Assembly: GCA_015065325.1 (NCBI GenBank)
Contig: SVQO01000001.1
Location: forward strand, 62,001-126,000
Length of the DNA stretch: 64,000 nt
Direction of reading: 5' to 3'
DNA from: Oscillospiraceae bacterium
GTDB taxonomy: Bacteria; Bacillota; Clostridia; Oscillospirales; SIG627
Both the position numbers and the translations under genes were made by a program. Below the pieces are notes generated by a model, which ran no database searches, was not told the DNA's origin, and was given only the letters and a program-made list of their open reading frames with translations. This document shows, in pieces, positions 44,230 to 47,585 of the stretch (position 1 is its first letter; each line of letters starts with the position of its first letter).

Positions 44230-45441
44230 ATGGCTTTTATCACGGAACAAAAAAAACAAACACCCCTTGTCGGTGAATACGACGTATTGGTCTGTGGCGG
44301 TGGCTTCGGCGGTATTGCGGCGGCTTTGGCGGCGGCAAGAGAAGGGAAAAAGGTTCTCCTTTGCGAGCGTGAATTCGCTCTGGGAGGGCTTGGCACCTTG
44401 GGTCTGGTTACCATTTATCTCCCCCTTTGCGACGGCTTTGGCAAGCAAGTCAGCTACGGGATTGCCGAGGAACTGCTTCGCCTTTCCATCAAGCACGGCG
44501 CAGACACCCACAAGCACGCCGCGCCCACTTGTTGGCTGAACGGAACGGGAACCAAGGAGGAACGTACCGCAGTACGCTTCAAGGTTCAGTACAACCCTTG
44601 GTATTTCGTAGCCGACGTCGAGCAGCTTTTGAAAAAGGAAGGCGTTACCATTCTTTACGGAACGGCAGTAGACGACGTCATCGTTGAAAACCATAAGATC
44701 CGCTACGTGCTCATCGACAGTATCAACGGCAGAGAGGCTATAAAAGTCAATGCCGTAGTTGACGCTTCCGGAAGTGCGGTGGTTTGCAAAATGGCAGGGG
44801 AAGATACCGCCGTATATTCCGCGGGCAACGTTCCCTCCTCATGGTATTATTACGCGTCCAAGGACGGAAATAAATTGAAAATGTTCGGTCCCTCCGACTA
44901 TCAGGGTGCAACTTTGGACGGAGCTCTGCAGGGCGTCCATTTCTCCGGTCTGGATGCAAAGGAGAATTCCGAGATGCTTATGTTCAGCCGTGAAAAGATG
45001 GTCGCCGACATTGAAGAGATGAAGGTCAAGAAAGAAGATCCTGAACTCTCTCCCATTATGATCTCCACCATTCAGGAACTGAGAATGACACGCCGCATCG
45101 TAGGCGTAGAGGATTTCCGCTACGACGACGTGGAAAAGAGAATCGAAAGCAGTATCGGCTGTATCGGCAACTGGCACAAGTGCGGGCGCGGACACGAAAT
45201 TCCTTTCGGAAGTCTGTTCGGCAAAAAGATCAAGAATCTGATCACCGCAGGGCGCATCACCTCAACCGACGATGCCGGTTGGGATCTGACCCGTGTCATT
45301 CCCTCCTGTGCCGTCACCGGTGAAGCCGCAGGCGTTGCCGCCGCTATGACGGACGACTTTGCTTCCCTTGACGTGACCCTTCTCCAAAGCAAGCTTCGCA
45401 AAAAGGGCGTTTTGATTCATCTGGATGAAGCCAAGGCTTAA
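44230..45441 (+). CDS. FAD-dependent oxidoreductase (FAD_oxidored type), copy 1
   Basis: A 403-residue flavoprotein of the FAD-dependent oxidoreductase family often found near sugar-degradation genes (Pfam FAD_oxidored-like). The N-terminal dinucleotide-binding strand is YDVLVCGGGFGGIAAALAAA, followed by GGLGTLGLVT. A middle region gives VVDASGSAVVCKMAGED, and the C-terminal FAD strand is KKIKNLITAGRITSTDDAGW and VIPSCAVTGEAAGVAAAM. No signal peptide. It is a single gene between promoter and terminator. The substrate is unknown. The gene at 62089-63354 encodes a relative with the same architecture. Confidence 0.9.
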   Translation: MAFITEQKKQTPLVGEYDVLVCGGGFGGIAAALAAAREGKKVLLCEREFALGGLGTLGLVTIYLPLCDGFGKQVSYGIAEELLRLSIKHGADTHKHAAPTCWLNGTGTKEERTAVRFKVQYNPWYFVADVEQLLKKEGVTILYGTAVDDVIVENHKIRYVLIDSINGREAIKVNAVVDASGSAVVCKMAGEDTAVYSAGNVPSSWYYYASKDGNKLKMFGPSDYQGATLDGALQGVHFSGLDAKENSEMLMFSREKMVADIEEMKVKKEDPELSPIMISTIQELRMTRRIVGVEDFRYDDVEKRIESSIGCIGNWHKCGRGHEIPFGSLFGKKIKNLITAGRITSTDDAGWDLTRVIPSCAVTGEAAGVAAAMTDDFASLDVTLLQSKLRKKGVLIHLDEAKA

Positions 45442-45490: not shown

Positions 45491-46060
45491 TTATTTGAAC
45501 ATTTTATCTACGTCGGCGATCTTGGTATCATCCAGCAGCTTTACCGTTGCCGTGAAAAGAATTTCGTCATCCAATTCCTTCATATAGATTGCGAAACGGA
45601 CGTCCTTGCCAACGATCACGCGGTAGAAGCCTTCACCGAATTTCATTTTCTCTATTTCGGTCATGGGGATCTGGGTCATAGGATCCTGGATCTTCAGCTC
45701 CGCTCTGATGCTCTCGGCATAGACTTCCTTAGAAAACTTTTCAATATCCAGCGTCTTCTTATCCTCAAACTTAAAAACCACCGTATTACCGGCACCGGGC
45801 TTGTTGGATTTTGCAACAGCGTCGTAAGCAACGCCGCTCTTTAACTGCTCGTCAAAGCTCTTGTTCCCCAGATTCCATTCCACGGAAATTTCTTCATCGG
45901 ACATAAACTCCCATCCCTCGGGAGCGGTAAAGGTGATGCCTACACCTTTGTTTTCATAAACGTTCCCATCAATCTTTCCACGCTGCGTTCCCTCCTCTGA
46001 GCAGGAGATCAAGGGCAAAACCATAATCAATGCAAGAACGAAAAACAATACTCTCTTCAT
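45491..46060 (-). CDS. Predicted lipoprotein of unknown function
   Basis: A 189-residue protein with a signal peptide and lipobox LISC (Cys20). The mature part starts with a short polar linker and then NKGVGITFTAPEGWEFMSDEE, a pattern seen in small secreted beta-rich proteins of the PsbP/DUF1795-like fold. No catalytic motif is seen. ATG at 46060 gives a proper signal peptide, so the longer in-frame reading is rejected. It is downstream of the SGNH-like gene but separated from it by a terminator-like hairpin. Confidence 0.82.
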   Translation of the reverse strand: MKRVLFFVLALIMVLPLISCSEEGTQRGKIDGNVYENKGVGITFTAPEGWEFMSDEEISVEWNLGNKSFDEQLKSGVAYDAVAKSNKPGAGNTVVFKFEDKKTLDIEKFSKEVYAESIRAELKIQDPMTQIPMTEIEKMKFGEGFYRVIVGKDVRFAIYMKELDDEILFTATVKLLDDTKIADVDKMFK

Positions 46061-46134: not shown

Positions 46135-47337
46135 TTATTTACCAAGAAGCTCCTTCAAATAAGGAACCAGGATATCAACGCTCTTCTGATGATCCTCTGC
46201 ACTGGGATAACGATCGGTTTCGGTAGAACCGGAGCCGTTGGCACCGTAAGCAAGCTTCAGTGCATATACATTGGCATCAGCACCACCCATATACTGCATC
46301 AACGCCTCAATCTCACCTGCTCTCACCGTATGGTACAGGGTATTGTAAACCCAGATCACGGGGATGGTCTGATCCTTGTAGTAATCGCGGAGATCGATGG
46401 TGAAATTCTTTGCCTTCACGATATACTCACCCATTGGCAGATTTTCCAGAGAGTCGTCCATACCCAAGTGAACGATGATGGCATCGGGCTTGCGGTCGGG
46501 CTTGTAACGGGTATCCAATTCTCTGTAAGCGTAGCGATTGTCGTACAGAGCGGGCATCTGATAAGAGCCTGCCTTGGTCACGAAGCCGATCTGGCTGTGA
46601 GCGACGATGCTGTAATCCGCATCCATTGCCTGAGCAGTCAGGTAAGGCAGAGCAGCGGTAACACTGGTCTCATCCACAATGGCGGAAGCGGTAGAGGAGG
46701 AGCCCTTTCCGAGGGCGCCGAAACCTACCAGGTAGCCGTCACCGACGAATTCCAAATACAGATCCTTTTCAGCGGGAGCCTCCAAAAATTCACCGTTGAA
46801 AGCAACGGATACGACGCTGTTGTAGTTGTTACGGCTGGTAGCGGGCTGAGTATCCTTAACCAGAGCGACGGTATGCTCACCGGCAGGGATACCGCGGGCA
46901 ACGATCATTTTCTTATTACCGTTACCGGTGGCAAATCTTTCACCGAACTGCTCACCGTCAACGAAGACCTTCCAGCGTGCGGAATAGTTGCAGCGGAAGC
47001 CGATACGAAGGTCAGAGCCCTCTTCGCCGATCTCTACGTTCATTTCGAAACCGGAGCCGCTCCACTCGGCGATCAGCTCTCCGTCCTTATTGTAGCCGGA
47101 TCTTTCGCCCAAAAGCTTGATGGAATCCTTTACGTCGCCCAGCTTATATTCATTCATGGGCATAGAGCTCTCCTCAATAGCGGGCGCTTCTTCTTCCTCA
47201 ACGGTTTCCTCAACCGTAGCAGTCTCTTTGGTTTCCTCGGTCTTCTCTTTCTCCTTGGGCTCGGAGGCACAGGAAGCCAGGGGCAACAGCATACATAACA
47301 AAAGAACTGCTGCGAGAAGGGTTCTGTAAAATTTCAT
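46135..47337 (-). CDS. CE2/SGNH-like lipoprotein lacking catalytic Ser and His
   Basis: A 400-residue lipoprotein: lipobox ASC (Cys23), a Glu/Thr-rich linker (28-58), a beta-sandwich like the N-terminal domain of carbohydrate esterase family 2 (about 65-185), then an SGNH-like domain. In CE2 enzymes the domain opens EFIGDS with the nucleophile Ser; here it is EFVGDG (Gly201). The catalytic Asp-x-His near the end (DWHPS type) is DRYPS here, with Tyr377 for His. The Asp is kept. Other fold marks (IVAHSQIGF, HLGMDDSLEN) remain. It is probably a carbohydrate-binding pseudoenzyme rather than an esterase. Confidence 0.82.
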   Translation of the reverse strand: MKFYRTLLAAVLLLCMLLPLASCASEPKEKEKTEETKETATVEETVEEEEAPAIEESSMPMNEYKLGDVKDSIKLLGERSGYNKDGELIAEWSGSGFEMNVEIGEEGSDLRIGFRCNYSARWKVFVDGEQFGERFATGNGNKKMIVARGIPAGEHTVALVKDTQPATSRNNYNSVVSVAFNGEFLEAPAEKDLYLEFVGDGYLVGFGALGKGSSSTASAIVDETSVTAALPYLTAQAMDADYSIVAHSQIGFVTKAGSYQMPALYDNRYAYRELDTRYKPDRKPDAIIVHLGMDDSLENLPMGEYIVKAKNFTIDLRDYYKDQTIPVIWVYNTLYHTVRAGEIEALMQYMGGADANVYALKLAYGANGSGSTETDRYPSAEDHQKSVDILVPYLKELLGK

Positions 47338-47585
47338 GGAAAATCTCCTTTCAAATGCGAACTTTAATTCGCAGTATTCGGGGGCATAAACTCCACCCCT
47401 TATACTATGTTCATTTTATTTTAACACAGAGCGCTTCATCTGTAAAGAGGAAATTTCTCTATTTTTTCCTTCTTTTTTTCGGCATTATTCCTAAAAGACC
47501 GTTTTTTTGTCGAAAAAACGCCGTAACTTCTCTCACGCGCGGTGCATAAACTATCAACGGGAGGAGAGTTTCGGAGAGGAACGCC

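Follow-up and report, generated by a model that had tools for sequence, protein, structure and literature searches.

The window, the whole 64,000-nucleotide stretch of DNA analysed here, encodes a lipoprotein of carbohydrate esterase family 2 (CE2) in which the canonical catalytic residues are replaced. Gly201 stands in place of the catalytic Ser, Asp294 in place of the oxyanion Asn, and Tyr377 in place of the catalytic His. The sister protein in a second species of the genus carries the motifs GDG, GIED, and ERFP, with Gly, Glu, and Phe at the same sites. The aligned sequences strongly support the loss of canonical esterase chemistry: Ser, Asn, and His have all been exchanged in two species between which synonymous change is saturated. 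The protein, designated pseudo-CE2, may be a natural CE2 pseudoenzyme that is kept as a surface-anchored, non-cutting binding protein with its ligand in the old active-site cleft. We give this explanation about an even chance.

Gene, product and predicted fold

The source organism of the pseudo-CE2 lipoprotein is a relative of ruminant-gut Clostridia. Genomes of its genus are labelled G000 (the own genome), G001 (RGIG1942, goat caecum), G003 (RGIG10278, yak rumen), and G004 (SRR873610_bin.94), along with G002 and G005. The features of the gene are collected in Table 1.

Table 1. Features of the pseudo-CE2 gene and its flanks, in window coordinates
Feature	Position	Strand	Residues	Basis or remark
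Pseudo-CE2 lipoprotein gene	46135..47337	(−)	400 aa + stop	
Signal peptide and lipobox LASC	47269..47337	(−)	1–23; LASC 20–23	sequence; predicted lipid-carrying Cys23
Acidic Glu/Lys-rich linker	47158..47268	(−)	24–60	
CE2_N beta domain	46837..47097	(−)	81–167	Pfam PF17996, 35.8 bits
SGNH-fold domain	46138..46767	(−)	191–400	model and structure matches
Block I GDGY	46732..46743	(−)	199–202	Gly201 for nucleophile Ser, then Tyr202
His290	46468..46470	(−)	290	alignment
Block III GMDD	46453..46464	(−)	292–295	Asp294 for oxyanion Asn
Block V DRYP	46204..46215	(−)	375–378	Tyr377 for catalytic His; acidic Asp375
AGGAG, likely ribosome-binding site	47345..47349	(−)		sequence
Sigma-70-like promoter candidate TTTACA-17-TAAAAT, TG before second hexamer	47418..47446	(−)		pattern scan
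Strong terminator-like hairpin past stop codon	46090..46124	(−)		separates pseudo-CE2 gene from next lipoprotein gene

The lipobox was read directly from the sequence, and its Cys is invariant in all nine rows of alignment A1. With a signal peptide and a lipobox Cys, the pseudo-CE2 protein is predicted to be a bacterial lipoprotein. The linker is modeled with low confidence by AlphaFold2 (pLDDT below 50 at residues 22–54). The protein would sit outside the membrane on this flexible linker. Four sigma-70-like sites occur in the region against 2.3 (sd 1.8) expected, so such a site is no evidence alone. The hairpin 3′ of the gene, contained in a 57-base stretch with a folding energy of −25.8 kcal/mol, is missing from the terminator-scan list.

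Directly downstream, the window encodes a second small lipoprotein (45491–46060, (−), 189 aa) with the lipobox ISC and no Pfam match at 0.01. An operon of the two lipoprotein genes is unsupported, as the hairpin lies between them and no BLAST match to the 189-aa protein was found at the G001 and G003 loci.

The CE2_N domain scores 35.8 bits against a Pfam cut-off of 27.9. The NCBIfam AxeC2 acetylxylan esterase model aligns over residues 79–398, with 35.9 bits against a cut-off of 500. The closest solved sequences are the CE2 enzymes 2wao/2wab (E = 1e-11), and a nine-sequence profile reaches E = 1.4e-42. The general SGNH families PF00657 and PF13472 gave no row for the pseudo-CE2 protein at E ≤1, nor, at 0.01, for P0002. 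In the intact G003 copy, PF00657 is above its cut-off (30.9 bits) and PF13472 below it (28.6 vs 32.9 bits). The AlphaFold2 model of the pseudo-CE2 protein has a mean pLDDT of 75.6 and is predicted to adopt the two-domain CE2 fold, composed of a beta domain and an SGNH domain. CE2 crystal structures are top-ranked for the model in Foldseek and VIA-align, with Z-scores of 28.5–33.8. The best structural match is Est2A of Butyrivibrio proteoclasticus (3U37, 4DEV; Z 33.8 over 322 residues, 22% identity), which is titled an acetyl xylan esterase, whereas the pseudo-CE2 protein lacks the catalytic residues. CtCE2, from Clostridium thermocellum CtCel5C-CE2, displays the same two-domain fold (2WAO, Z 32.3; S612A mutant 2WAB, Z 32.5). 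It is an active esterase with Ser612, Asn705, and His791, all three of which are replaced in the pseudo-CE2 protein.

The assignment to CE2 by sequence and fold is sound. The sequence-only reading had described a lipoprotein with CE2 fold marks, which the LASC lipobox, the CE2_N score, and the Z-scores bear out. The comparison of a predicted structure with CE2 esterases, which it had proposed, gave the Est2A and CtCE2 S612A matches above.

Model confidence is low in the cleft loops of the pseudo-CE2 protein. This was considered as a sign of rearrangement and rejected, since an intact G003 control built with the same nine sequences is also low there. The only difference visible between the two models, a short helix after GDS (197–201) in the intact G003 copy, is too weak for use.

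Replacement of the catalytic residues

Two of the replacements had been read from the sequence before, GDG for GDS at the nucleophile (residues 199–201) and Tyr for the catalytic His in DRYPS (residues 375–379), and both are confirmed. The third loss goes beyond that reading: block III is GMDD in place of GxND, with Asp294 at the oxyanion position. Thus, neither the Ser-His dyad of active CE2 enzymes (Gly201 and Tyr377 here) nor the oxyanion Asn (Asp294; Glu in the sister) is found. The catalytic Asp had also been described as kept. An Asp does stand at position 375, two before the His site, but the description is misleading. All three intact congener copies have Asn there, G001 has Glu, and only 24 of 129 outgroup rows have Asp, and therefore Asp375 is not evidence of a retained triad. 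Judged from the alignment, it was probably not inherited.

An order-level search of 394 genomes yielded CE2 relatives at 72 places in 59 genomes. The 72 aligned rows, query included, contain Ser (70) or Gly (2) at the nucleophile, Asn (69), Asp, Glu, or Ser (1 each) at the oxyanion position, and His (70), Tyr, or Phe (1 each) at the His position. Scanning named genomes contributed another 54 loci, all of which contain one or more CE2 matches. The scan pattern allowed Ser or Gly at the nucleophile and was built on A1, so the set is weighted to relatives of A1. Across 134 non-redundant CE2 rows, Ser is present in 132 and Gly in 2; Asn in 130, with Asp, Glu, Ser, and a gap once each; and His in 131, with Tyr, Phe, and a gap once each, the gap cells belonging to one partial row. 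The only rows without Ser are the pseudo-CE2 protein and the G001 protein, and the same two carry Tyr or Phe for His. The GDGY pattern was matched in 8 of 391 class-level genomes; among the matches listed, from which G001 is absent, only the window's own is a CE2 protein by profile, and the search covers this one motif. A first scan of genome contigs with the single pseudo-CE2 protein as query found no relative.

The CE2 protein of G004 (L011) retains Ser and His and has GTSD in block III, with Ser for the oxyanion Asn, the sole such row among the 134. The own genome contains ten further PF13472 (SGNH) places (L169–L178), several with a long N-terminal region before the intact GDS/His. Genome-wide loss of SGNH catalysis was rejected: nine of the ten places are SGNH-type, and all of these keep the block I Ser and a C-terminal-proximal His, as read by eye.

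Backbone NH groups together with the Asn side chain make up the oxyanion hole of CtCE2 and CjCE2A (PMC2661963). According to a review, the oxyanion Gly and Asn are present in structurally resolved GDSL/CE2 enzymes (PMC9487903). The S612A and H791A mutants of CtCE2 are reported to have no esterase activity, and the same 2009 structural paper, which discusses 26 CE2 members, calls the dyad invariant 'to date' (PMC2661963). In another SGNH enzyme, mutation of Ser10, Asn82, or His216 to Ala each abolished activity (PMC10779480). Because three catalytic residues are replaced, Ser-His ester hydrolysis is very unlikely, and the pseudo-CE2 protein would be unable to cut esters by this mechanism.

Motif loss need not abolish activity, which speaks against a pure binding protein. 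PSA_Lip, a fungal GDSL-like protein from Pleurotus sapidus, contains SGGI with the Ser kept and hydrolyses esters, and its homology model, 'relatively poor' according to its authors, places neither an Asn nor a His close to the Ser (PMC11372007). It is likewise without the usual Asn and His in that model, but unlike the pseudo-CE2 protein it retains the Ser and has measured esterase activity, and it is not a CE2 protein (PMC11372007). The plant GDSL pseudoenzyme At1g54030 (MVP1/GOLD36/ERMO3) is reported to be without lipase activity and to have acquired a different role; it is not a CE2 protein either, and the cited work concerns ER morphology (PMC4757993). Among the matches listed from the open-licence PMC literature, the text returned presents no inactive CE2 protein as such.

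Relatives, locus and constraint

The closest homologue found is the G001 protein, which shares 43.7% identity with the pseudo-CE2 protein, compared with 37–39% for the intact congeners. The degenerate pair forms one clade with support of 100/96 in the full tree, and the three intact genus copies form its sister clade (100/98). The pair is still grouped when the motif blocks are masked (95/91). A single origin of the catalytic loss would fit these trees. The intact lipoproteins of G003 and G004 share the architecture of the pseudo-CE2 protein, the glycine-rich stretch before block V and, in G003, the neighbour gene. They differ in keeping GDS and RHP, and their block III reads GTND and GAND in G003 and GTSD in G004. 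The glycine-rich stretch, YGxNGSGS (46225–46248, residues 364–371), precedes block V in all five genus proteins; in the two columns counted, outgroups have gaps in 52 and 78 of 129 rows.

These relatives bear on whether the loss is real. The sequence-only reading had asked whether GDG is conserved and had named intact close homologues as a sign of simple mutation or sequencing error. GDG is conserved in the G001 sister, but 132 of the 134 CE2 rows have Ser. Intact congeners do exist, but the closest homologue (44%) shares the loss, so that neither simple mutation nor sequencing error accounts for it. The congener assemblies come from metagenomes, which would leave some room for an error in sequencing or assembly, or for a point mutation of recent date. 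However, the changes affect three distinct sites, and GDG, an acid in place of Asn, and the absence of His recur in a second species that was assembled independently. The second species with the same loss rules out a sequencing error or single mutation, and the chance of any such artefact is negligible.

The CE2 gene adjoins a class-V aminotransferase gene in G000, G001, and G003. On its other side, the dus gene lies directly beside CE2 in G001 and two genes further off in G000. The intervening genes in G000 encode an FAD-dependent oxidoreductase (44230–45441, (+)) and the 189-aa lipoprotein, and are not found there in G001. The G003 locus contains two tandem intact CE2 lipoprotein genes (L017:7467–9878) that are 47% identical. 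The G004 copy sits on a 3-kb contig, and G005 has no CE2 match. The own genome, with an assembly 88.7% complete, contains one CE2 in total, and no intact CE2 was found elsewhere in it. G001 has one CE2 by protein search and a second, sub-threshold CE2_N match on another contig.

In G002, the nearest species compared (PheT 81.7%; PheT was found in five of six genus genomes), dus is adjacent to the aminotransferase gene, and a profile search of the surrounding 12-kb stretch found no CE2. A different SGNH domain (L147:7072–7542, in a 501-codon frame) occurs about 1.1 kb from dus, near the site at which the profile search found no CE2.

At fourfold codons of G000 and G001, the third base agrees in 29 of 80 cases (0.36), against 0.33–0.35 expected by chance from composition. 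Agreement at the composition level indicates that synonymous change is saturated between the two. Both pseudo-CE2 frames are open; without constraint, a gene at such divergence would be expected to have a broken frame. CE2 identity in the degenerate pair is 43.7%, versus 46.4% for the neighbour gene; the corresponding values in the intact G003–G004 pair are 68.3% and 73.9%. The pseudo-CE2 gene thus evolves no faster than its neighbour.

Within the SGNH domain of the degenerate pair, 45 of 76 motif-block residues are identical versus 50 of 131 in the rest (p = 0.004). An intact paralogue pair of similar divergence has 57 of 75 and 56 of 129, respectively. The motif blocks are less conserved in the degenerate than in the intact pair (45/76 vs 57/75, p = 0.037), with block III the lowest of the four (7 of 16 vs 12 of 15). 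These figures indicate that the cleft is constrained, with somewhat weaker force or differently.

The same data weigh on the reading that the gene is decaying, in which the enzyme is no longer needed, catalysis has been lost, and the gene is leaving the genome, as maybe already in G002. The CE2-free G002 locus and the low block III identity would agree with this course. It is nevertheless improbable in our judgement, given frames intact at saturated synonymous divergence and 43.7% identity, a ribosome-binding site and lipobox in place, and divergence matching that of the neighbour gene. Three of these observations also count against a maintained binding protein: the degenerate form is seen in two species only, its motif blocks show lower conservation than those of the intact paralogue pair, and the gene is dispensable, since no CE2 was found between dus and the aminotransferase gene at the G002 locus.

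The remodelled cleft and its possible role

At 41 positions, the two degenerate proteins agree with each other and depart from all three intact congener copies; at one of these positions the residue faces gaps. Part of these residues, including Ser248 and Tyr265, are the common outgroup state and not new. Set against 129 outgroup rows, four states close to the centre are clearly new: Gly201, Tyr202, His290, and the acid at 294. In the outgroups, position 202 is Ile in 109 of 129 rows, position 290 is Asn in 87 and His in 4, and position 294 is Asn in 128. Both degenerate proteins contain His290 and Tyr202, and position 290 is Cys in the intact congeners. Three further oddities are genus-wide. 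Position 230, aromatic in the outgroups (Tyr, Phe, or Trp in 128 of 129 rows, His in the other), is Leu, Val, or Thr; Gly249 of block II is replaced by Ser or Gln; and position 376, in most outgroups Gly or Trp, is Arg.

The aromatic sugar platform of CtCE2 is formed by Tyr665, Trp746, and Trp790, and it is incomplete in the pseudo-CE2 protein. Trp790 corresponds to Arg376 in all five genus proteins. In a HMMER alignment read by eye, Tyr665 lies opposite Ala256 and Trp746 opposite Trp329. Position 329 is Leu in G001, so only Trp746 has a possible counterpart here, and this one is missing in the sister.

CtCE2 provides a precedent for sugar in an esterase cleft without turnover (PMC2661963). 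Cellohexaose lies across its active site, and the S612A mutant binds about 8-fold tighter and H791A about 20-fold weaker (PMC2661963). The S612A result indicates that a CE2 cleft without its serine can bind sugar well, which makes it the strongest precedent for a role in binding. In the pseudo-CE2 protein, a ligand, most likely a cell-wall or dietary glycan, would enter the old active-site cleft and not be cut. Gly201 would free space, and Tyr202, Tyr/Phe377, Asp/Glu294, and Asp/Glu375, together with the neighbouring beta domain, may hold the ligand.

An acetyl carbonyl is not the expected point of contact for the ligand; the acid in place of the oxyanion Asn would repel such a group. The earlier proposal of a protein that binds acetylated sugar without cutting it accordingly stands in part: canonical chemistry is lost, but acetyl binding is unsupported, with the Asn by which CE2 enzymes help to fix the reacting carbonyl changed to Asp or Glu and two of the three platform aromatics missing. 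Glycan binding in general also faces objections. The platform is incomplete, and the equivalent of His791, which the tighter S612A binding used (PMC2661963), is gone. GH10 is found in none of six genus genomes and GH5 in two of six, the own genome included.

The fold may instead be kept for protein–protein contact at the surface, for example with another envelope lipoprotein, the old cleft being ligand-free. Inactive enzyme homologues are reported to work often via protein contacts (PMC11266112), two of the three sugar-binding aromatics of CtCE2 are missing, and the acidic linker and lipobox suit a surface scaffold. Yet in the degenerate pair the motif blocks of the cleft are more conserved than the remaining domain, the gene is followed by a hairpin, and the G000 and G001 loci share no partner gene except dus and the aminotransferase gene. 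A scaffold role is possible but somewhat doubtful.

A rebuilt active site, which the sequence-only reading had offered as its second option, would perform new catalysis or cut esters by other residues, using the acids at 294 and 375, His290, and Tyr202/377. The pair at 294/375 is Asp/Asp here and Glu/Glu in G001, in contrast to Asn (or Ser)/Asn in the intact congeners; His290 and Tyr202 are present in both degenerate proteins; and activity is reported for a GDSL-like hydrolase that lacks the usual SGNH residues (PMC11372007). Position 377, however, is Tyr in one protein and Phe in the other, leaving no common base. The comparison comprises two sequences only, and the active exception, PSA_Lip, retains its Ser. 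Such a site is unlikely. A more specific conversion, in which the carboxylates 294 and 375 with Tyr202 and His290 would constitute an acid-pair or metal site for new chemistry, such as glycosidase-like or cation-dependent, has a slim chance.

A non-cutting binding protein remains our preferred explanation. The CE2 pseudoenzyme would be a new example within the known phenomenon of inactive enzyme relatives. Its lineage may represent a natural counterpart of the S612A mutant with its tighter sugar binding. A preserved CE2 lineage without catalysts would also offer a test of whether an esterase can turn into a pure binding protein, and annotation by the CE2 domain only will label non-enzymes of this kind acetylxylan esterases.
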